Shown: positions 5,393 through 30,429 of the stretch, piece after piece
How positions within the stretch are numbered: the first letter of the stretch is position 1
Layout of the letters: every line of letters starts with the position of its first letter
Assembly: GCA_003232915.1 (NCBI GenBank)
Contig: QIKE01000092.1
Span: 1-32,045 of the forward strand
Direction of reading: 5' to 3'
Length of the DNA: 32,045 bases
Origin: Bacteroidota bacterium
GTDB taxonomy: Bacteria > Bacteroidota > Bacteroidia > Bacteroidales > F082
The notes under the pieces: generated by a model
What the model was told of the DNA's origin: nothing
Seen by the model: only the letters and a program-made list of their open reading frames with translations
The model's database searches: none
Position numbers and translations under genes: made by a program

Positions 5393-8188
5393 CTATTTTG
5401 CAGGTTTCAACACGCCAAGAACATAATGGTTGAGGGAGATATATTTTTTGGCAGCTTTTTTAATTTCTTTGGCTGTAACAGCTTCTACCGCTTTGTTGTA
5501 TTCCGTTTCGGGCATAATTTTCGAGCCGTAAAAATCAAAGTTCATTAGCGAGCGCAACCAGAAATTATTTTCTCTTTCTTGGGTTTCTCTAGCGCGGATA
5601 AAAGTTTCTTTAGCTTTTTGCATATCTACTGCAACAGGGCCATTTTTTCTAATATGTTCCATTTCGTCGAAAACCGAGTTCGTAAGTTTTTCAACATTTT
5701 TAGGAGAACAACCGAAGCCAAGCATCAGCATATAGTCTTGTTTTGGATATTTGTTCAAGTTCGGGCTAACGTAGATACCATAAGTACCGCTTTCTTCTTC
5801 TCTGACTTTTTCGCGCAATTTGATGTTAAGTATTTTTACCAACGTTTTCATTTTCAAATTGTCTTCAAAGTTGTATTTATACTTTCCGTGCATAGCAATA
5901 GTAACCTGACTTTGGGGTGCTTTTCCTTTGAAAACGGTAAACTCTATTTTTCTTTTTGGAAAATTGGGTTCAACGTCTTTCCAGTTTGTTTTAGTCCCTG
6001 TCGGTATAGAAGCGAGGTATTTTTCCACCAAAGGTTTTAGCTTCTCGGTATCAATATTTCCCACAAAAAATACTTTGAACCCATCGGCATGTTGATAGAG
6101 TTTTTGATAAATTTTGAAAATATTTTTCATATCTATTTTATCGTATTGCGCTGGTGTTGGGAAAAGAACAACCCGTGGCGAATTCATTGTTATTACCTTA
6201 TAAAGCGAATCGTAATAAGCATATTTTGGATTGTTAATCATAAACTTAGCTCGATCTTTACGGTTTTCGATAATAGTTGTAAATATCTCTTTGTCATGTC
6301 TTGGGTGGGTGAAATACATATATTGCAATTTCAAAAGTGTTTCCAAATCTTTCGGGCTGGCTTTTCCACTAAAACCATTTTTCAAACGGTAAATATACGG
6401 GTTAAGAGAAGCTATGGTACCTGCAAGTTTTTTCTCAAGATTAACGCCACTGAAATCGCCCACTCCGCTACGGGATATTATTTGCGGCAATACCTTAGCC
6501 GAAACCACTTCGTTATCGGCAAGTAGCGATCTTCCTCCGAGAGTATAAGCATTATAAAGCACTTCGTCGTTTTTGAAATTAGTGGGTTTTATATAAACCT
6601 CCATACCGTTGCTTAATGTCCATTTTTCGTATAAAGTATCTACTTTGGTAATGTTTACTATTTTGCCCGGCGTAATTGAATCAATAATCAGCGGTTTATT
6701 AGAAACCTTGTCTTTATAAGCACCTAAAACAGTGTTTTGTGTCGAATTTATAATTGATAATACTTCGTTTTGTGTAGGAACTTTTACTCCCTTTTTTTTG
6801 GGTGCGGTAATTAACACTACAACATTTTTGTTTGTAATCCATTTTTTAGGCAAGCTGTTCACTTCGTCAAGTTTGATGGTTGGCAGCAGTTGTTTTACCA
6901 TATTATATTCCGCTTTGGTGCCAGGGTACGGATCGCCTTCCAAAAAATTGTTTAAATACTCTTGGATCAGAGTTTTCGATTTTTGTTTATTACGTTCGGC
7001 ATAGAGTTTTTCGTAATGCCGCAGCATATCTTTTTTCTCACGATCGAATTCGGTTTTGGTAAAACCGTGCTTTTCTACTCTTACATTTTCATCAAGTAAT
7101 ACTTTTAAAGCTGTGTCGATTTTGTTAACTTTGGCAACAGCAAAAGAAGAGTACGAATCTTCTGTTCTACCCAAAAAATTACCGTAATTCGTTGAGGCAT
7201 ACATAAATGGAGAAGTAGGTTTTTGTGCAATTTCATTGAGACGTGCGTTAAGCATATCCGTAAAAATTTTATAGATAATGTATTGCCGGTAATCGCCAAC
7301 GGTTTTTTCAACTTTGCGTGGGTGCTTGTAAAAAATGTTTACCATATTATATGTGGTTTCGTTGTCGGTTTCGATGGCAATCAAAGGCTTATTGTTGTTA
7401 GGAATACCGAAAATTTCTCTTTTTCTTTCGTTGGCCGGATTAGGAATGGCCGAGAAATCTTTTTTTATCAATTGTTCCATTTTGTCAACATTGATATCGC
7501 CAACCACAACAACGGCCATCAAATCGGGACGGTACCAATCTTTGTAAAAACGCCTGAGGGTATTGTAATGGGCGCTGTCTATAATGGCCATTTTCCCGAT
7601 AGGAAGGCGTTGTGCATATTTAGAATTTTTCAGGATGATGGGAATGTATTTGTTCCTCATTCGCTCTTGAGCACCAAGGCCTAAGCGCCACTCTTCTTTT
7701 ACCACGCCACGTTCTTTATCAATTTCGGAACTGTCGAGAGTAACGTTGTGTGCCCAGTCTTCGAGCACTAATAAACCACTGTCGACAAGACTTTCACGGT
7801 CTGAAGGTATTTGCAGCATATACACTGTTTCGTCGAAGCTCGTGAAAGCGTTTAGATGTGCGCCGAATTTTACACCTGTTTTTTCCAAAAAGTCTATGAG
7901 CTTCGATTTCTCAAAATGTTTAGTGCCATTAAAGCTCATATGTTCAAGTAGATGTGCCAGCCCTTGCTGGTTGTTGTCCTCACATATTGAACCTGCATCA
8001 ATAGCCAACCTTAGTTCAACACGATCTCTCGGTTCGGAATTGTAACGAATGTAATATGTCAGTCCGTTTTGGAGTTTACCGAACCGCACACTGGAGTCTC
8101 GTTGTAAAACCTGTTGTAAATTCTGGGCCTGCAACGAAAACAATGCAAGCATAAAAATTACAGGGAAAATGAGAAGTTTTTTTAACAT
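5393..8188 (-). CDS. M16-family zinc peptidase (pitrilysin/insulinase-like), exported
   Basis: A 931-residue enzyme with a signal peptide (MLKKLLIFPVIFMLALFSLQAQ). The inverted zinc motif HLLEH is at residues 79-83, followed by the conserved ERGVVKEEWR segment (159-168) that supplies the downstream Glu ligand, probably Glu166 by analogy with pitrilysin. The length matches the two-repeat (~900-residue) M16 form; the second half (from about 540) has the fold's sequence features but no HxxEH, the usual arrangement of one catalytic and one non-catalytic half. Expected to degrade peptides in the periplasm. It is a single-gene unit with its own promoter (8319-8348) and terminator (5311-5359). Confidence 0.93.
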   Translation of the reverse strand: MLKKLLIFPVIFMLALFSLQAQNLQQVLQRDSSVRFGKLQNGLTYYIRYNSEPRDRVELRLAIDAGSICEDNNQQGLAHLLEHMSFNGTKHFEKSKLIDFLEKTGVKFGAHLNAFTSFDETVYMLQIPSDRESLVDSGLLVLEDWAHNVTLDSSEIDKERGVVKEEWRLGLGAQERMRNKYIPIILKNSKYAQRLPIGKMAIIDSAHYNTLRRFYKDWYRPDLMAVVVVGDINVDKMEQLIKKDFSAIPNPANERKREIFGIPNNNKPLIAIETDNETTYNMVNIFYKHPRKVEKTVGDYRQYIIYKIFTDMLNARLNEIAQKPTSPFMYASTNYGNFLGRTEDSYSSFAVAKVNKIDTALKVLLDENVRVEKHGFTKTEFDREKKDMLRHYEKLYAERNKQKSKTLIQEYLNNFLEGDPYPGTKAEYNMVKQLLPTIKLDEVNSLPKKWITNKNVVVLITAPKKKGVKVPTQNEVLSIINSTQNTVLGAYKDKVSNKPLIIDSITPGKIVNITKVDTLYEKWTLSNGMEVYIKPTNFKNDEVLYNAYTLGGRSLLADNEVVSAKVLPQIISRSGVGDFSGVNLEKKLAGTIASLNPYIYRLKNGFSGKASPKDLETLLKLQYMYFTHPRHDKEIFTTIIENRKDRAKFMINNPKYAYYDSLYKVITMNSPRVVLFPTPAQYDKIDMKNIFKIYQKLYQHADGFKVFFVGNIDTEKLKPLVEKYLASIPTGTKTNWKDVEPNFPKRKIEFTVFKGKAPQSQVTIAMHGKYKYNFEDNLKMKTLVKILNIKLREKVREEESGTYGIYVSPNLNKYPKQDYMLMLGFGCSPKNVEKLTNSVFDEMEHIRKNGPVAVDMQKAKETFIRARETQERENNFWLRSLMNFDFYGSKIMPETEYNKAVEAVTAKEIKKAAKKYISLNHYVLGVLKPAK

Positions 8189-8733: not shown

Positions 8734-9429
8734 TTATCCGTTGACTTTTATTTTCCATAAAAAATCATAATCAAGAATGTTAATTGTTTTTCCTTTTGTA
8801 GCGATAATTCCGTCGTTGTTGAAATCAGAAAGTGTGCGGATAGTATTTTCGGTAGTCATAGAAATCAGTTCGCCGAATTCTCTACGTGTAATGGGTAATT
8901 CAAAGGTTTTACGGTGATAAACCTGATCGGCAAAAAATAGCAAAATGCTTGCTATCCGGCCTTTTATTTGTTGTTGCGACTGCTCGAAACGACTTTCAAT
9001 AATTTCACCGGCAATATGCCCCATTCGATGAACAATACTAATAGCAAAATCGCCATTGGCTTTTATCAAATGTTCCAGCACATTAATGTCCACTTCACAT
9101 GCAAGGGTTTCTTCAAGGGTAGAAATGCTGTAGTTGTAAGTTTCGTTTGTAAAAATACATAACAGATTAATAAAATCGCCGGGTTTGTTAATACTTAAGA
9201 TATGGTCTTTTCCCGTATGGTCGGTTTTGTACAATTTTACCAATCCTCTTCTAAGATAAAGAAACGAATTGATTTTTTCGAATTCACTTTTTATCTTTTC
9301 TCCCTTATGAAACAACACTTCTCTTCGGGCATTATTTATCATCTTATACTCTATATCATCAAGGCATCCGAAAAGCAAAGTACGATAAACGCAAGTTTTA
9401 CAGCTTATTATATCATTTTTTATTTTCAT
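8734..9429 (-). CDS. FNR-like Crp/Fnr transcription regulator with cluster-type cysteines
   Basis: A 231-residue Crp/Fnr-family protein: N-terminal cysteine segment, cyclic-nucleotide-binding-like beta-roll, dimerisation helix and C-terminal winged helix-turn-helix. Cys10, Cys13 and Cys22 (SCKTC, then FGC) precede the beta-roll, and Cys111 in TLACEVDINVLEHL aligns with E. coli FNR Cys122 in SMVCEIPFETLDDL, so all four positions expected for an oxygen-labile [4Fe-4S] cluster are filled, with a wider third gap (x8 instead of x5). The recognition helix MTTENTIRTL keeps the FNR-type Glu (194) and Arg (198), consistent with reading TGA half-sites. It is divergent from the sulfide oxidoreductase operon with 117 bases between start codons and an FNR-type palindrome in that gap. 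A role in redox control of that operon and of itself is inferred. Confidence 0.88.
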   Translation of the reverse strand: MKIKNDIISCKTCVYRTLLFGCLDDIEYKMINNARREVLFHKGEKIKSEFEKINSFLYLRRGLVKLYKTDHTGKDHILSINKPGDFINLLCIFTNETYNYSISTLEETLACEVDINVLEHLIKANGDFAISIVHRMGHIAGEIIESRFEQSQQQIKGRIASILLFFADQVYHRKTFELPITRREFGELISMTTENTIRTLSDFNNDGIIATKGKTINILDYDFLWKIKVNG

Positions 9430-9447
9430 TCTAAATTATTGGAATTG

Positions 9448-9455
9448 CAAAGATA
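9448..9455 (-). promoter_or_regulatory. -7 element for the FNR-like regulator gene
   Basis: TATCTTTG on the minus strand, a perfect TAnnTTTG, 18 bases before the ATG at 9429. The FNR-type palindrome at 9458-9469 lies immediately upstream, between the -7 and where a -33 box would be, a position suited to autorepression. Confidence 0.5.
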
Positions 9456-9457
9456 GG

Positions 9458-9469
9458 TGATTTATATCA
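9458..9469. promoter_or_regulatory. FNR-type operator, TGAT-N4-ATCA
   Basis: TGATTTATATCA is a perfect inverted repeat TGAT-tttat minus one-ATCA (TGAT, TTAT spacer, ATCA), the core of the FNR consensus TTGAT-N4-ATCAA with the outermost base of each arm changed. Its centre is about 54 bases before the predicted start of the SQR operon and about 20 before that of the regulator gene. Confidence 0.55.
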
Positions 9470-9503
9470 TACTTTAAAATGCAAATACTTAAATATATCA
9501 ATA

Positions 9504-9511
9504 TAACTTTG
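9504..9511 (+). promoter_or_regulatory. -7 element for the SQR operon
   Basis: TAACTTTG, a perfect TAnnTTTG, 35 bases before the chosen ATG at 9547. No TTTG at the normal -33 distance, which fits an activator-dependent promoter. Confidence 0.55.
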
Positions 9512-9546
9512 TAAAGAAATTGTTACAACAAAAAATTATTAAATTT

Positions 9547-10776
9547 ATGAAAAAATTATTGATACTTGGCGCTGGAACAGCGGGAACTATGATGGCCAAC
9601 AGGATGCGAAAAATACTTGCGCGCGACGAATGGGACATCACTATTGTGGACCGTTTTAAAACACATTATTATCAGCCGGGATTTTTATTTATTCCTTTCG
9701 GGATTTATCAACGAAATGATGTTGTAAAACCGAAAAATGATTTTTTTCCCATCGGTGTAAATGTGATTTATTCAAAAATAGAAAAAATTGAGGCTACCGA
9801 AAGCAAAGTATTACTTGCTGAGGGTGTTGTATTGAGTTACGATTTTTTAATTATCGCAACGGGTACACGTACGGCGCCTGAAGAAACACCGGGATTAAAA
9901 GATAAATTATGGTACAAAGAAATTTTTGATTTCTACACCATTGAAGGGGCTGTTGCTTTGGCCGGCTTTTTCAAAACATGGCAAGGTGGCAAATTAGTAG
10001 TAAATATTGCCGAACTTCCTTATAAATGTCCGGTAGCACCACTTGAGTTTGTTTTTTATGCCGATGCTTTTTTCACCGAGAGGGGAATGCGCAACAAGGT
10101 GGACATCACTTTTGTTACCCCTTTGTCCGGTGCATTCACCAAACCGAGAGCCACAAAAATGTTGGGCGAATTATTAAATGACAAAAATATCAACATCATT
10201 CCCGATTTCAATATTGCCGAAGTGGACAACGATGCTAAAAAAATCATTGATTTCGGTGGTAGCGAAATAAATTTCGATTGTCTTGTAAGTATTCCTACCA
10301 ACCTTGGCGACAAAATGATAGAACGTAGCGGTTTGGGCGACGATATGAACTTTGTGCCTACCGATAAACACACTTTACGATCGCGCGACCACGAAAACAT
10401 TTTCATTATTGGCGACGCTGCTAACCTGCCCACATCCAAAGCCGGTTCGGTAGCTCATTTTGCTGCTGAAATTCTGGTCGAAAACCTGATATGTGCTATC
10501 GAAAAAAGACCCTTTACCGCTAGTTTCGACGGTCATGCCAATTGTTATATCGAAACCGGTTTCGGCAAAGGAACACTCATTGATTTTAATTACGATACCG
10601 AACCTTTGCCAGGTTCATTCCCTTTCCCTGGTATAGGCCCTTTCGGGTTACTGAAAATAAGCCGAATGAACCATTATGGCAAAATGTTGTTTCGCTGGAT
10701 TTATTGGCATATTTTGCTTAAAGGCAAAGAAATGCCTATCGACTCTGAAATGCAAATGGCCGGTAAAAAGCTTTAA
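9547..10776 (+). CDS. sqr: Sulfide:quinone oxidoreductase-like FAD flavoprotein
   Basis: A 409-residue disulfide-reductase-fold flavoprotein. It opens with MKKLLILGAGTAGTMMANR, the FAD dinucleotide motif (Gly8, Gly10, Gly13), has the SQR-typical YYQPGFLFIPFG, the IIATGTR segment, and IIGDAANLPTSKAGS for the flavin ribityl site. Cys161 in LPYKCPVAPLEF occupies the place of the conserved SQR/flavocytochrome c redox cysteine, and Cys333 in ANCYIETG is a candidate partner. The C-terminus (FGLLKISRMNHYGKMLFRWIYWHILLKGKE) looks like the amphipathic helices that dock SQR on the membrane. Expected reaction: sulfide oxidation to persulfide or polysulfide with quinone as acceptor. I chose ATG 9547 over an upstream in-frame start because the Rossmann strand begins right there. 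First gene of a four-gene operon with sulfur-relay proteins, which supports the call. Subtype not assigned. Confidence 0.85.
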   Translation: MKKLLILGAGTAGTMMANRMRKILARDEWDITIVDRFKTHYYQPGFLFIPFGIYQRNDVVKPKNDFFPIGVNVIYSKIEKIEATESKVLLAEGVVLSYDFLIIATGTRTAPEETPGLKDKLWYKEIFDFYTIEGAVALAGFFKTWQGGKLVVNIAELPYKCPVAPLEFVFYADAFFTERGMRNKVDITFVTPLSGAFTKPRATKMLGELLNDKNINIIPDFNIAEVDNDAKKIIDFGGSEINFDCLVSIPTNLGDKMIERSGLGDDMNFVPTDKHTLRSRDHENIFIIGDAANLPTSKAGSVAHFAAEILVENLICAIEKRPFTASFDGHANCYIETGFGKGTLIDFNYDTEPLPGSFPFPGIGPFGLLKISRMNHYGKMLFRWIYWHILLKGKEMPIDSEMQMAGKKL

Positions 10777-10789
10777 GCTAATCTTAATA

Positions 10790-10810
10790 AACTAAAACTT
10801 AAAGCTATGG
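10790..10810 (+). repeat. Repeated translation leader, copy 1
   Basis: AACTAAAACTTAAAGCTATG at the start of the DUF1641 gene differs by one base from the sequence at 11843-11863 before the DsrE2-like gene. Confidence 0.6.
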
Positions 10811-11487
10811 AAAACAATAAGATGCAAGAACAGATTGATGCCATAAATCAAAAGCTCGACATTATACTTGAGGAGGTGATGGCACAACGCGAAGTAAGAC
10901 AAAATATTACCGACCTGTCGGCCGATATGAACATTATCGGCAAAGACCTTTTTGGAGCGGCAGTTACCGAACTCGACAATGCAGGTGTGGAAATAGACGG
11001 TGAAGCGGTTAAAGTATTGGTATTGAAAATTATCAGAAATATTGAAACCCTCAACGAAATGTTCGATATGCTTGAGAGCTTTTACGACCTAATAAAAGAT
11101 ATTTCACCTATTCTTCATCAGGCAGGTCTTGACGGCATTAAGGCAATGAACCGGTTAGAGCAAAAAGGTTATATCGATTTTATTAAGGAATCGGGGAAAA
11201 TTATAGACAATATCGTTACCCATTTTGAGCTAGAAGATGTACGTCTGCTCGCCGATAACATCGTAATTATTTTGGAAACTGTGAAAAACCTCACACAACC
11301 CGAAATGCTTAGTGCTATCAACAATGGAGTGGTAGTTTATAAAAGTCTCGATGTAAATGATATACCGGCTTATTCTTTGTGGAAAGCTATGCGGGTTATG
11401 AACTCTCCCGAACTACGAAAAGGTTTGGGTTTTATGATAACTTTCCTGAAAAATATTGCCTCACAATCGGAAAATATCAATAAATAA
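10807..11487 (+). CDS. DUF1641 family protein
   Basis: A 226-residue, mostly helical, acidic protein without signal peptide or membrane segment. The first 30 residues (MQEQIDAINQKLDIILEEVMAQ) look like a coiled coil. The LVLKIIRNIETLNEMFDMLESFYDLIKD region and the LTQPEMLSAINNGV-type segment near residue 175 resemble DUF1641, a family often found next to sulfide:quinone oxidoreductases and formate dehydrogenases; its biochemical role is not known to me. It starts 30 bases after the SQR stop codon and is followed 42 bases later by the TusE-like gene. No cysteine is evident, so it is unlikely to carry sulfur itself; a scaffolding or adaptor role is a guess. Confidence 0.72.
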   Translation: MENNKMQEQIDAINQKLDIILEEVMAQREVRQNITDLSADMNIIGKDLFGAAVTELDNAGVEIDGEAVKVLVLKIIRNIETLNEMFDMLESFYDLIKDISPILHQAGLDGIKAMNRLEQKGYIDFIKESGKIIDNIVTHFELEDVRLLADNIVIILETVKNLTQPEMLSAINNGVVVYKSLDVNDIPAYSLWKAMRVMNSPELRKGLGFMITFLKNIASQSENINK

Positions 11488-11529
11488 CAGATGAAACATT
11501 TTAATATTAACCATTTAAAAATTTATAAT

Positions 11530-11841
11530 ATGGCAACAAGAACAATAGCAGGTGTAAATGTGGATGTAAACGAAGAAGGTTATCTTACCGATGCATCGCA
11601 ATGGACTAAAGAAATGGCAAGGGAAATTGCCAAAGAAGAGGGTATTGAACTTACCGGCAAACATATGGAGGTAATTGACTATATTCGTACTAAAGTTCTA
11701 TCGGGCGAAGGATTAACAATTCGAGGTATAGGTAAGTCGGGAGTCGTGGATGCCAAAACCTTTTATCAGTTATTTCCTGGTGCACCTTTAAAAAAAGCAA
11801 CCAAAATTTCGGGGGTACCTAAGCCGGTATCCTGTATTTAA
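11530..11841 (+). CDS. tusE: TusE/DsrC/DsvC-family sulfur carrier
   Basis: A 103-residue protein matching the DsrC/TusE family throughout: N-terminal VDVNEEGYLTDASQWTKEMA, central helices, and a C-terminal arm FPGAPLKKATKISGVPKPVSCI. The penultimate Cys102 is the family's sulfur-carrying Cys(A). The second arm cysteine, Cys(B), which true DsrC proteins have in the KACKIAG position, is Thr here (KKATKISG), so the protein resembles TusE-type carriers that bind a single sulfur. An in-frame ATG 39 bases upstream exists, but ATG 11530 gives the family's normal length and follows an A/T-rich leader. In an operon with SQR and a DsrE-like protein but no dsrAB, it probably accepts sulfane sulfur for relay. 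Confidence 0.9.
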   Translation: MATRTIAGVNVDVNEEGYLTDASQWTKEMAREIAKEEGIELTGKHMEVIDYIRTKVLSGEGLTIRGIGKSGVVDAKTFYQLFPGAPLKKATKISGVPKPVSCI

Positions 11842-11842
11842 T

Positions 11843-11863
11843 AACTAAAACTTAAAGATATGG
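11843..11863 (+). repeat. Repeated translation leader, copy 2
   Basis: AACTAAAACTTAAAGATATG before the DsrE2-like gene; matches 10790-10810 at all but one position. The upstream coding sequences are unrelated, so this is a duplicated or selected leader. Confidence 0.6.
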
Positions 11864-12363
11864 ATAAGCAAAATGATTATCCTTTGAAAAAAATCATGAT
11901 GATTTGCTCCAAAGGTACACTTGAGGATGTATATGCTGCTTTGGTAATGGGCAATGGCGCTGTGATGGAAGGTATTGAAACAAAAATGTTTTTTACCTTT
12001 TTTGGTCTTGATGCCATCACAAAAAAGACTATGAACCACTTGCATACGGCAACTGTGGGAAATCCTGCCATGCGTATGCCAGGCGGTTTACCTTTTCCCA
12101 CACTACTTGGTGTTTTGCCGGGAGTAGAAGCCGGTGTTTCAAAAATGATGAAAGCCGGAATGGAAAAACTTGATATTCCGCCGGTGGAAGAATTTCTTGA
12201 ACTTATCGAAGCCGGTGGCGGCGAAATTTATGCATGCAAACTCGCAGCCGATATGTTTAAACTTAAAAAAGAGGATTTTCACAAAACCGTAAAAGACATC
12301 ATCACCGTTGGCGACCTTTATGCTATGTGTGGCGGCCTCGGAACACAAATTGTGTTTACCTGA
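11860..12363 (+). CDS. DsrE2-like (DsrE/DsrF/DrsH family) sulfurtransferase-type protein
   Basis: A 167-residue protein of the DsrE/DsrF/DrsH-like superfamily. The N-terminal strand-loop KKIMMICSKGTLEDVYAALVMGNGAV carries Cys16, and the second strand GGEIYACKLAADMF carries Cys126, the position of the sulfur-accepting cysteine in DsrE-type proteins; Cys157 lies near the end (AMCGG). The glycine/proline-rich middle (MRMPGGLPFPTLLGVLPGVE) is typical of the DsrE2 subgroup, which takes part in cytoplasmic persulfide transfer with TusA and rhodanese. It is the last gene of the SQR operon, 18 bases after tusE, with two terminator-like hairpins directly after its stop. Expected to pass sulfur between SQR-derived persulfide and the TusE carrier; the direction is inferred. 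Confidence 0.87.
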   Translation: MDKQNDYPLKKIMMICSKGTLEDVYAALVMGNGAVMEGIETKMFFTFFGLDAITKKTMNHLHTATVGNPAMRMPGGLPFPTLLGVLPGVEAGVSKMMKAGMEKLDIPPVEEFLELIEAGGGEIYACKLAADMFKLKKEDFHKTVKDIITVGDLYAMCGGLGTQIVFT

Positions 12364-12382
12364 TACGAGTCTCGTATTTTTT
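12363..12382 (+). terminator. First hairpin/T-tract after the SQR operon
   Basis: ATACGAG (12363-12369) and CTCGTAT (12371-12377) are perfectly complementary around a minimal loop and run into a T stretch. It begins within the TGA stop codon. Confidence 0.55.
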
Positions 12383-12390
12383 AATCATAA

Positions 12391-12421
12391 AAACCTCAGC
12401 TTACGGTTGAGGTTTTTTTTT
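12391..12421 (+). terminator. Second, stronger terminator after the SQR operon
   Basis: AAACCTCA (12391-12398) pairs with TGAGGTTT (12408-12415), loop of 9, followed by a run of T to 12421. The end of the T-run overlaps the promoter element of tatC. Confidence 0.8.
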
Positions 12422-12436: not shown

Positions 12437-13279
12437 ATGGTTACCGAACAAAATACAAGCAAAAACAAGTCTGAGGAAAAGGAAAAGGTAATGAGTTTTT
12501 GGGATCATCTCGACGAGTTGAGGATGCATATCATCAGATCGCTTATTGCTGTGGTGTTGTTAGCTTCTATTGCTTTTCTCAACCGTAAAATTGTGTTCGA
12601 TTATGTAATATTAGCCCCGAGTAGTTCCAATTTTATAACATACCGGATGCTGTGCAAACTCGGACATTTTTTATCTGTTAGCAGCTTGTGTGTTAGCGAT
12701 ATGCATCTTAAAATTATTAATATTAAAATGTCGGGACAATTTTTAACCCATATGTATATTTCCATTGCAACCGGTTTTCTACTTGCTTTTCCGTATGTGT
12801 TGTGGGAAATTTGGCGATTTGTACAGCCTGCTATGCATGAAAAAGAAAAAAAACATTCTCGTGGAGGTGTCGTTATTAGCACACTGCTCTTTTTAACCGG
12901 CGTGTTGTTTAGCTATTTCCTTATAGTTCCGCTTACAGTAAATTTTCTGGGCACCTATTCGGTAAGCTCGGATGTGCAAAATCAAATTTCGCTTTCTTCT
13001 TATATCTCAACGGTGGTGTCGCTAACATTTGCCGTCGGCATTGTTTTCGAACTACCCATTTTAGTTTATTTTCTTACCCGTATCGGTGTAATTACACCCG
13101 GTTTTTTAAAGAAAAATCGTAAATATATGTTTGTTATTCTTTTGATTTTGGCCGCTATCATCACTCCTCCCGATATGTTTAGTCAAATAATGGTTGTAAT
13201 TCCGCTCTGGGGTCTCTACGAGTTTAGCATACTTGTTTCAAAAAGAGTGTATAAACGAAACTTGGAAGCGCCGAAATAA
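12437..13279 (+). CDS. tatC: Sec-independent protein translocase TatC
   Basis: A 280-residue polytopic membrane protein. The N-terminal motif MSFWDHLDELRMHIIRSL is the cytoplasmic twin-arginine signal recognition region of TatC; about six hydrophobic segments follow, with the hallmark FAVGIVFELPILVYFLTRIGVITP and AIITPPDMFSQIMVVIPLWGLYEFSI. It is the core receptor of the Tat pathway that exports folded proteins. ATG 12437 is chosen because the frame upstream runs through the terminator and the previous gene. A short lysine/glutamate-rich extension precedes the conserved region. No tatA gene lies next to it. It is convergent with gcvP. Confidence 0.95.
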   Translation: MVTEQNTSKNKSEEKEKVMSFWDHLDELRMHIIRSLIAVVLLASIAFLNRKIVFDYVILAPSSSNFITYRMLCKLGHFLSVSSLCVSDMHLKIINIKMSGQFLTHMYISIATGFLLAFPYVLWEIWRFVQPAMHEKEKKHSRGGVVISTLLFLTGVLFSYFLIVPLTVNFLGTYSVSSDVQNQISLSSYISTVVSLTFAVGIVFELPILVYFLTRIGVITPGFLKKNRKYMFVILLILAAIITPPDMFSQIMVVIPLWGLYEFSILVSKRVYKRNLEAPK

Positions 13280-22769: not shown

Positions 22770-22936
22770 ATCCTTCTTCTCAGAAGGAGGCTTTGATTTG
22801 TCCAACACCAGGTATGTACGTATCTTCAATTTTTTTTGAATTAACCCTATTAACGATATTAGTATCTCGAAACTTTTATTTACCTCTTCAATTGTGATTC
22901 GTTAATTGATATTCATCAAGATTAAATCCACAAAAA
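22770..22936. repeat. Dispersed intergenic repeat, copy C
   Basis: Starts with CCTTCTTCTCAGAAGGAGG (hairpin CCTTCT/AGAAGG), corresponding to the CCTCC/GGAGG head of copy B. It shares ATCTCGAA and TTTTATTTA with copy B and GTGATTCGTTAATTGATATT with copy A. It lacks the right-hand third (ACCACACCCAAAGGA block). Confidence 0.7.
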
Positions 22937-28407: not shown

Positions 28408-30033
28408 TCATTTTTCTTTCAAAACCTTATCTCTTCGCATCTTCACATCCTTGTTTCCTCGCCCTTTCGTTTTTTCTTCCGGATAATCAATGGTATAATG
28501 CAGTCCGATACTTTCTTTGCGGTTCATCGCCATTTTTATTACGAGGTAGCCCACATTTATCATATTTCGCAGTTCGCAAATATCTTGCGAAAGAATGGAC
28601 TTGTCGTAAAGGTCTTCGGTTTCTTTATAAAGAATTTCCAGTCTGTCGAGAGCTCGTTTCAATCTTAGATCGGAACGGACGATTCCCACATAATTGCTCA
28701 TTATTGATTGCAATTCTTTTTTCGATTGTGTTATCAAAATCATTTCTTCGTTTAAAACCCTTCCCGAAGCATCCCAATTGGGTACACTACTGTGAAAATT
28801 GTAGTTTTTCAAGCTTTTTATAGCGTGTTGGGCTGCACGATGTGAAAATACGGCTGCTTCGAGCAAAGAGTTGGAAGCAAGGCGGTTAGCGCCGTGAAGA
28901 CCTGTTGATGCCACTTCGCCGGCTGCATACAAATTACAAATTCCGGTTTGCGCAAACTCGTTGGTTTTGATGCCACCACACGAATAATGAGCGGCAGGAA
29001 CCACCGGTATCATTTCTTTAGTAATGTCGATGCCGATACTTAGGCATTTGGCATAAATGGTGGGAAAATGATTTAGGATTTCGATTTTATTAATATGGCG
29101 TGCATCCAGAAAAACATAGTCATCGCCCGAAAGTTTTAGTTCTTTGTCGATAGCACGTGCCACAATATCGCGTGGAGCCAGTGAACCCATTTTGTGGTAT
29201 TTGTGCATAAATATCTCATCTTTCTTTGTTTTGAGCATAGCACCTGCTCCGCGCAAAGCTTCACTGATTAAAAACGACGGTTTTTCACCTGGGTTATACA
29301 ACGAAGTGGGATGAAATTGTACGAATTCAAGGTTCTCAAGATGTGTTTTAGCTCGATATGCCATAGCAAGACCGTCGCCTGTGGAAAATAACGGATTGGT
29401 AGTGGTTTGATAAACATTGCCCATACCGCCCGTAGCAAGCATAGTGGTGCGTGCAAGTATGGTTTCTATTTCACTCGTTGTGCGATTCATTGCGTAAACC
29501 CCATAACAGATAATATCGCTGCGATGCCTTGTAACCATTTCGTTAAGATGATGTTGCGTAATCAAATCAATAGCAAAATAATTTTCAAGAATTTCGATGT
29601 CGGGATGTTCTTTAACTTTTTGACTTAGTGCTCGTTGTATTTCGTAACCCGTATTGTCTTTATGGTGTAAAATACGGAATTCCGAATGCCCTCCTTCACG
29701 GGCAAGGGCATACTTTCCCGACTTTTCTTTGTCGAATTGCGTACCCCAAGCAATAAGTTCTTTTATCCTTTCGGTAGATTCGATGATGGTGATTCTAACG
29801 ATTTTTTCGTCGTTGATACCGGCACCGGCTTGAATGGTGTCGGAAATATGTTTTTCGTAATTATCGGGCGAATACATTACAGCAGCTATTCCTCCTTGCG
29901 CATAAGAAGTAGCCGTATTGTCCATGCTGCTCTTTGATAAAACAATTACTTTTCCATATGCAGCCACTTTCAAAGCAAAAATTAGGCCTGCACTTCCAGA
30001 ACCAATAATTAGAAAATCAGCTTTGCGTTGCAT
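28408..30033 (-). CDS. nadB: L-aspartate oxidase
   Basis: A 541-residue FAD enzyme of the succinate dehydrogenase/fumarate reductase flavoprotein family. FAD motif FLIIGSGSAG (residues 7-16), SYAQGGIAAVM, the aspartate-oxidase-specific LAREGGHSEFRILHHKDNTG, AAHYSCGGIKTN and LYAAGEVASTGLHGANRLASNSLLEA. It oxidises aspartate to iminoaspartate, the first step of de novo NAD synthesis; nadA and nadC are not nearby. The frame can start at TTG 30051, but that codon is part of a promoter element, so ATG 30033 is chosen. The last ~22 residues (EEKTKGRGNKDVKMRRDK onward) are a charged tail past the usual end, coded by pyrimidine-rich repeat-like DNA. Confidence 0.96.
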   Translation of the reverse strand: MQRKADFLIIGSGSAGLIFALKVAAYGKVIVLSKSSMDNTATSYAQGGIAAVMYSPDNYEKHISDTIQAGAGINDEKIVRITIIESTERIKELIAWGTQFDKEKSGKYALAREGGHSEFRILHHKDNTGYEIQRALSQKVKEHPDIEILENYFAIDLITQHHLNEMVTRHRSDIICYGVYAMNRTTSEIETILARTTMLATGGMGNVYQTTTNPLFSTGDGLAMAYRAKTHLENLEFVQFHPTSLYNPGEKPSFLISEALRGAGAMLKTKKDEIFMHKYHKMGSLAPRDIVARAIDKELKLSGDDYVFLDARHINKIEILNHFPTIYAKCLSIGIDITKEMIPVVPAAHYSCGGIKTNEFAQTGICNLYAAGEVASTGLHGANRLASNSLLEAAVFSHRAAQHAIKSLKNYNFHSSVPNWDASGRVLNEEMILITQSKKELQSIMSNYVGIVRSDLRLKRALDRLEILYKETEDLYDKSILSQDICELRNMINVGYLVIKMAMNRKESIGLHYTIDYPEEKTKGRGNKDVKMRRDKVLKEK

Positions 30034-30048
30034 CGGTTTGTTTTTTTG

Positions 30049-30056
30049 CAAAATTA
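30049..30056 (-). promoter_or_regulatory. -7 element for the nadB unit
   Basis: TAATTTTG on the minus strand, perfect TAnnTTTG, 15 bases before the ATG at 30033; a very short leader is implied. Confidence 0.5.
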
Positions 30057-30429
30057 CGGAATTTTAAAATCAATTATTGACATATCCTAATTTTATGTTT
30101 ATATAATATCATTAATTTGCCGGAAATATTAAAACCAAAATTATCAGGATTTTATGAGTTTAATTGATTACTTTAGCTTGATTCTAAGATAGAATAGATG
30201 GTTACTATTATGATGAAAATCATGGCGTCTTGAATGCATTTAGCTATGTTTTTGTTTAAATTTATGTATGGATCATTTAAACGGAAACCGTCATAATCAC
30301 CTATGGTTAAGTTCTATAAGTGGTTATCTATCCCTTTTTAGAATAGAGCCAACATTTATAATTACTTAGATGGTTCCTCTTGTATAAATAATCAAGATAA
30401 TTGTTTCATCATCCATAAACATCTGCGTT
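30057..30429. other. Gene-free AT-rich stretch
   Basis: About 370 bases between the nadB promoter and the TatD gene. No open frame with coding character, RNA gene or clear terminator was seen. ATAGAATAGATGG and AGAATAGAG occur within it but do not form a convincing repeat. Confidence 0.5.

Follow-up and report, generated by a model that had tools for sequence, protein, structure and literature searches.

A 32,045-nt contig of a Bacteroidota bacterium of the order Bacteroidales (GenBank assembly GCA_003232915.1, contig QIKE01000092.1; this whole stretch is the window) carries a gene for a Crp/Fnr-family regulator back to back with a four-gene operon, encoding a sulfide:quinone oxidoreductase (SQR), a DUF1641 protein and two sulfur carriers of the TusE/DsrC and DsrE2 families. 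We propose, with a probability of about two in three, that the operon is a dedicated sulfide-oxidation and persulfide-relay unit under its own regulator, with DUF1641 as the menaquinone-docking subunit of SQR. SQR would oxidize sulfide with Cys161, Cys333 and FAD and reduce menaquinone, as its family and the literature suggest, and a ForE-like DUF1641 would, by homology, dock this peripheral enzyme to menaquinone, dispensably in some lineages. DsrE2 would then take sulfane sulfur from SQR on Cys126 and pass it to Cys102 of TusE, by analogy with DsrE-to-DsrC transfer in Allochromatium, and TusE would hand it on to an acceptor in the cytoplasm that is not DsrAB. The Crp/Fnr protein is predicted to activate the operon by binding a TGATN4ATCA box, whose conservation and phasing with the promoter are directly observed. 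It is very likely that electrons are taken from sulfide and that the sulfur is handed to a protein relay. The locus comprises the following features, with predicted functions:

8734..9429, minus strand: divergent Crp/Fnr-family regulator gene (Pfam cNMP_binding and HTH_Crp_2; Cys10, Cys13 and Cys111 conserved)
9457..9470, no strand assigned: FNR/CRP-type operator GTGAT-TTAT-ATCAT with core TGATN4ATCA (binding predicted)
9504..9511, plus strand: Bacteroidota-type −7 promoter element TAnnTTTG, 47.5 bases from the operator centre
9547..10776, plus strand: type III SQR, the Cys variant of a selenoprotein-named family (ATG at 9547; NF049943)
10807..11487, plus strand: DUF1641 protein, proposed ForE-like menaquinone-coupling subunit of SQR (Pfam PF07849)
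11530..11841, plus strand: single-cysteine TusE/DsrC-family carrier with penultimate Cys102 (TIGR03342; first possible ATG at 11491)
11860..12363, plus strand: DsrE2-like persulfide carrier with Cys126 (Pfam DrsE_2)
12389..12417, plus strand: intrinsic terminator closing the operon (13-pair stem, 3-base loop, T tail)

Conservation of the operon

All five genes lie where a preliminary description of this DNA had placed them, with families confirmed by Pfam and NCBIfam and with intergenic gaps within the four-gene operon (9547-12363) of 30, 42 and 18 bases, as given there. A DUF1641 homologue was present in 43 of 247 genomes of the taxonomic order (the carriers), and wide regions from 40 of the 42 relatives (G170 and G175 left out) gave, together with the window, 41 loci. 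SQR, DUF1641 and TusE occurred in all 41 and DsrE2 in 39, the other two (L036, L043) lying at a contig end. In a second, overlapping set, the best 80 loci by SQR alignment, 71 encoded SQR, DUF1641, TusE and DsrE2 in that order, four encoded SQR-TusE-DsrE2 and five were cut by a contig end. Full operons came from genomes titled Bacteroidota, Ignavibacteria (with Melioribacteraceae), Neomarinimicrobiota, Calditrichota, KSB1, Opitutaceae, Caldilineae and Aminicenantes; most of the titles belong to metagenome-assembled genomes, and at least one, the 'Chlorobiota' of L142, looks unreliable.

Conservation of the operon is far beyond chance. The gene order is widespread and not confined to this genome, the outcome that the preliminary description had named as a refutation: beyond the 71 loci in operon order, the divergent regulator stands upstream in 32 of the 41 wide loci. 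A search of the open-access literature, with subscription papers and preprints outside its scope, found no description of the operon and no paper combining DUF1641 with sulfide quinone. The operon is a real and conserved combination of known part families for which that literature yielded no description.

Identity of the flavoprotein

Against NF049943 ('type III sulfide quinone reductase, selenoprotein subtype') the flavoprotein scored 646 bits, over a cut-off of 525 and with the next family at 60 bits. Among solved structures, it comes closest to SQOR chains of the mitochondrial type, two of whose cysteines, presumably the catalytic pair, align with Cys161 and Cys333. Cys161 is kept in 40 of the 41 wide-region loci (one gap) and Cys333 in all 41, and both occur in 81/81 rows when the best 80 SQR loci are aligned with the window. 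Together, these matches strongly support SQR, with sulfide:quinone activity predicted from family and literature. Grouping with NADH dehydrogenases, named in the preliminary description as an outcome that would refute its proposal, was not borne out and is ruled out by the NF049943 score and the SQOR alignment.

The name of NF049943 refers to a selenoprotein that carries an HxxU motif (PMC13188914), whereas the window protein reads HANC, ending in Cys333, and has cysteine in that column in all 81 rows, indicating the Cys form rather than a strict selenoprotein; no internal stop, as an in-frame TGA for selenocysteine would give, appeared among the over-cut-off matches listed in the phylum scan. 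In E. coli, a type III SQR of Oceanidesulfovibrio marinus CS1, whose two conserved cysteines are residues 159 and 331, reduced both sulfide and its toxic effect (PMC10989961); the cysteine numbers are nearly the same as here (161/333), a comparison of numbers and not of an alignment.

The carrier pair and the fate of sulfur

Both carriers score over their family cut-offs and fall short of the narrower equivalogs. The TusE/DsrC carrier scored 77.9 bits against TIGR03342 (TusE/DsrC/DsvC; cut-off 53.5) and 68.3 bits against the TusE equivalog NF008562 (cut-off 191); DsrE2 scored 92.9 bits against PF13686 DrsE_2 (cut-off 25) and 95.5 bits against the equivalog NF047629 (cut-off 210). TusE Cys102 is present in 41/41 wide loci and in 76 of 77 rows of the best-80 set with the window, the remaining row being truncated. 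DsrE2 Cys126 is kept in 39/39 wide loci and 73 of 76 rows (the other three gapped), and Cys16 in 37/39 and 50/76. The second arm cysteine of DsrAB-linked DsrC was not found in the carrier arms listed, and replacement of that residue by Ala, Ser or Thr is a near-rule in organisms without DsrAB (PMC3397948). No dsrA was detected in the 43 carrier genomes. On both counts the carrier differs from a dissimilatory DsrC, and the proposal of an SQR and sulfur relay without dsrAB was supported.

The closest characterized parallel is the DsrEFH-DsrC relay of Allochromatium vinosum, in which sulfur passes from a DsrE-family cysteine to the penultimate cysteine of DsrC, a transfer seen in one direction only (PMC3397948). 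Like that relay, the operon pairs a DsrE-superfamily cysteine donor with a DsrC-family penultimate-cysteine acceptor; unlike it, DsrE2 stands alone, the acceptor is a one-cysteine TusE-like protein, no dsrA was found and SQR lies in the same operon. By this analogy we hold a relay function of the carriers with moderate confidence.

What the relay is for is less clear. A possible, though less probable, account is that the operon serves mainly for sulfide detoxification, with DsrE2 and TusE only buffering or discarding sulfane sulfur; it differs from the proposed unit only in the fate of the sulfur. The relief of sulfide toxicity by a type III SQR in E. coli (PMC10989961) favours it, as do the lack of dsrA in the carriers, the lack of a downstream acceptor in the operon, and the YeeE/YedE sulfur-transport and rhodanese genes found nearby in a minority of loci. 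The carrier pair, however, is co-conserved with SQR across many titled phyla, which suggests specific delivery and not release. We weakly favour assimilation of the sulfur into a persulfide pool, thio-biosynthetic or other, over its disposal.

YeeE/YedE genes lie near the operon in L031, L040, L043, L045, L101, L102, L115, L139, L140 and L157, that of L157, the one read, with a fused rhodanese domain, and separate rhodanese-type genes occur in L031, L101, L102 and L139 (Pfam on L102). The preliminary description had found neither rhodanese nor TusA. For rhodanese this holds for the operon but not for the genome, which has five domain matches in three reading frames; for TusA it holds for this genome, which has only a sub-cut-off match, but not as a rule of the module, given that 20 of 43 carriers are over the cut-off, and TusA was rejected as a fixed partner.

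In the TusBCD-TusE system of E. coli, TusE serves tRNA thiolation, and the two carriers here could be a housekeeping relay of that kind, placed beside SQR by accident. The single-cysteine, TusE-like arm fits that role, and the resemblance to E. coli TusE extends to membership of the DsrC family; unlike E. coli TusE, the carrier here adjoins SQR and DsrE2 in the loci examined and falls far under the TusE equivalog cut-off (68 vs 191 bits). Its distribution likewise makes a housekeeping role unlikely. Within the order, PF04358 (DsrC/TusE) has matches in no more than 76 of the 247 genomes, 43 of them carriers. We read 20 further DsrC regions, ten low-scoring and ten high-scoring, leaving aside five more carriers with a second copy and the remainder of the 33 non-carrier genomes. 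Eight of the low-scoring regions proved to be SQR-TusE-DsrE2 operons without DUF1641, the other two being L197 and L200, the latter a fragment without a match; nine of these ten copies, all from other genomes, adjoin DsrE2 and eight adjoin SQR, and a universal tRNA function would not be expected to track SQR. All ten high-scoring regions (two of them second copies in carriers) encode two-cysteine DsrC, and neither SQR nor DsrE2 was found in its vicinity. Across the order loci examined, single-cysteine TusE adjoins DsrE2 in 48 of 50 (39/41 and 9/9, the other two at a contig end), and this confinement of the single-cysteine carrier to the operon argues against general tRNA thiolation.

Among the high-scoring regions, in L203, L205, L207 and L208 the gene for a two-cysteine DsrC precedes those for a CCG/4Fe-4S (DsrK-like) protein and a class-V aminotransferase (identified by Pfam in L207 and by eye in the others), and no SQR or DsrE2 was found near this DsrC. 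These loci are possibly a DsrC-linked disulfide system without DsrAB, dsrA having been searched for in the 43 carriers only.

DUF1641 as a proposed quinone partner of SQR

The DUF1641 protein matches PF07849 at 31.2 bits (cut-off 21), as do 36 of 42 aligned members at E 0.01. A profile of the 42 members matched ForE1/YjgD of Bacillus subtilis (8rqz, 8rr0, 9gzq) at E 1.9e-6 over about 120 residues (chain residues 33-158), the only match in the Protein Data Bank (PDB) below E 0.001, and the homology extends beyond the 39-residue motif. A single-sequence PDB search with the window protein gave only two unrelated weak matches. ForE1 copurifies with the Bacillus formate dehydrogenase, formate:menadione activity requires it, and MK-7 binding most likely does too (PMC8808070). 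In keeping with ForE1/ForE2, the DUF1641 protein here is the operon partner of a peripheral quinone-linked dehydrogenase and shares the homologous C-terminal half; it differs in that its partner is the flavoprotein SQR and not a molybdenum enzyme, and its N-terminal part is longer than that of ForE1 (the match starts at profile position 103 and ForE1 residue 33).

The window protein has no cysteine, and no conserved cysteine column was found in the family, with none at 30% of 41 rows or at 25% of 76 rows. A protein that lacks cysteine and is related to a subunit linking a dehydrogenase to menaquinone is more plausibly a quinone partner of SQR than a sulfur adaptor. We therefore assign it, with moderate confidence, as a putative quinone-coupling subunit of SQR with predicted menaquinone binding.

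The preliminary description had cast DUF1641 as the missing sulfur adaptor between SQR and the DsrE2/TusE pair, a proposal that fits its position between SQR and TusE in 71 of the best 80 SQR loci. This now appears improbable: besides the want of a conserved cysteine and the homology to menaquinone-coupling ForE1, SQR, TusE and DsrE2 are kept without DUF1641 in eight operons of the order, in four of the best 80 SQR loci and in 14 of 29 loci sampled across the phylum (below). A non-covalent scaffold could still be accommodated.

DUF1641 genes also occur beside other oxidoreductases. One heads a Huc-type hydrogenase operon of Parageobacillus (PMC12976888), and in Ignicoccus co-culture raised both a DUF1641 protein and an FAD pyridine nucleotide-disulphide oxidoreductase that bears the adjoining locus tag (PMC3149612). 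We also considered whether HucM, which forms the menaquinone stalk of the Huc hydrogenase, belongs to DUF1641, and set the idea aside since the passages of PMC10017518 held no text making that link.

The divergent regulator and its box

Of the nine wide loci in which the divergent Crp/Fnr gene was not seen, two (L057, L058) have SQR cut by a contig end. In the best-80 set the regulator was counted in 34 loci, with eight undecidable and a criterion that missed at least L111 and L133; it was not seen in the decidable loci of that set with titles outside Bacteroidota, L142 excepted.

Comparison of 61 distinct regulator relatives showed Cys13 and Cys111 in all 61 and Cys10 in 59, and Cys22 in one, the window itself. 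The preliminary description had placed all four at FNR cluster positions. Cys10, Cys13 and Cys111 indeed align with FNR positions that we take to be cluster ligands, but Cys22 does not: the third N-terminal cysteine of a solved FNR-type regulator aligns with Leu19. Cysteines occur also at window positions 8 and 32 in 29 of the 61 relatives, 17 have only the three, and the protein scored 63.9 against NF008365 (FNR; cut-off 228). With three and not four ligand positions kept, oxygen sensing is unproven and persulfide sensing is possible; the regulator could hold an Fe-S cluster with another fourth ligand or act as a thiol switch.

Of the 32 intergenic regions between regulator and SQR, 29 contained the TGATN4ATCA core, where shuffled sequences predict 0.5; among seven testable loci without the regulator, one contained it. 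The whole window has three matches (0.65 expected). The other two, at 22906-22919 and 30210-30223, lack a phased −7; the latter lies about 160 bases upstream of a gene for a fumarate-reductase/FAD-type flavoprotein (28408-30051, minus strand).

To this box the promoter stands in fixed register. Pooling these regions with those of the best-80 set gave 63 (exact duplicates removed, near duplicates kept), 52 of them with the box, and we looked in them for TAnnTTTG, which we take as the Bacteroidota −7 consensus. Its distance from the centre of the box was exactly 47.5 or 48.5 bases in 28 of the 52 (0.09 expected). The number rose to 35 when a 63-66 spacing, consistent with a second box standing 16-17 bases farther upstream, was also allowed (0.27 expected); neither spacing was found in 17. 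The box with phased −7 occurs only twice in the whole 2.5 Mb assembly. Across eight whole genomes the phased pattern gave 12 matches, six of them at the operon, and none when read backwards, two genomes having no match. Such a fixed box-promoter spacing suggests activation, and box and phasing together bear out the proposed link between regulator and operon.

The regulator thus resembles FNR-type proteins in its Crp/Fnr family, in a near-FNR box at the target promoter and in three of four ligand positions, and departs from them in lacking the third N-terminal ligand and in a phased site almost confined to the operon, as opposed to a global regulon.

The only other phased box in the genome (L214; G000:C17, ~5860-5913) lies between a second Crp/Fnr gene and a ResB/CcsA-like cytochrome-c-maturation gene (by eye), beside a multiheme-type protein (also named by eye); from these neighbours a cytochrome-linked respiration is conceivable. 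In nine loci a MerR-family gene lies near the operon (L146, L153, L157, L166, L167, L169, L171, L172, L177), in eight of them about 400-515 bases upstream of SQR (Pfam on L177, where it is cysteine-rich). MerR may replace Crp/Fnr in other lineages.

Direction of the relay and weight of the evidence

The relay could also run in reverse, DsrE2 and TusE bringing sulfane sulfur to a flavoprotein that reduces it with menaquinol, as Psr/Phs-type molybdopterin reductase-like genes within 7 kb in 8 of 121 loci (by eye) might suggest, but reducing sulfur with menaquinol would take an enzyme powered by the proton-motive force, menaquinol by itself being too weak a donor. This, together with the one-directional DsrE-to-DsrC transfer (PMC3397948), makes reversal very unlikely.

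Several results weigh against a dedicated sulfide-oxidation and relay unit with DUF1641 as its docking subunit. Ranking by likeness to the window SQR favours full operons in the best-80 set. Across the phylum, SQR exceeded its family cut-off in 95 of 395 genomes, and among the 29 best phylum SQR loci outside the window (flanks ≤1.5 kb, tblastn) nine had the full set, 14 kept TusE and DsrE2 with DUF1641 missing, and six, with SQR identity of 46-48%, had no operon partner by tblastn. The phylum sample points to a core of SQR-TusE-DsrE2, with DUF1641 optional and the SQR family wider than the operon. DUF1641 is missing also from the eight operons of the order and the four best-80 loci noted above; SQR can evidently dispense with it, and its frequent absence marks it as an aid and not a requirement. 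The ForE1 match is distant and restricted to the C-terminal half of DUF1641, and structure searches with the full model and its C-terminal part, from AlphaFold models of low pTM (0.37 and 0.30), returned nothing at E 0.001 and did not list ForE1. L197 keeps the regulator, TusE and DsrE2 without SQR between them, so the relay may have another sulfur source, and no acceptor for TusE was found. On the respiratory side, menA is present in the window genome, in line with the proposed unit, and over the cut-off in only 12 of 43 carriers, which makes it uninformative outside the window genome; cytochrome bd, considered as a linked electron sink, was rejected, with no enrichment (32/43 carriers vs 143/204 others) and none found in the window genome.

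More tentatively, DUF1641 might be a general menaquinone-docking subunit of unrelated peripheral dehydrogenases (formate dehydrogenase, the Parageobacillus Huc-type operon and SQR) and the three-cysteine Crp/Fnr protein might sense sulfane sulfur in place of oxygen, which would make the operon a self-regulated sulfide-to-persulfide pipeline with its own carrier pair in many phyla. If the proposed unit is real, it shows a way in which many uncultured bacteria could feed electrons from sulfide to menaquinone and pass on the sulfur with no need of DsrAB. DUF1641 would then act in more than formate dehydrogenase, and a defined transfer of sulfur from SQR to a carrier would become testable within one operon; the phased box offers a ready marker for the regulon.

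Genome context

The window lies on contig 50 of a 162-contig assembly of 2.53 Mb, 86.6% complete. Of the two terminators that the preliminary description placed after the operon, a terminator scan recovered the strong one at 12389-12417, but not the second, a short palindrome at 12363-12377 before a run of T's that was seen by eye. Downstream of the operon terminator, tatC begins at 12437.

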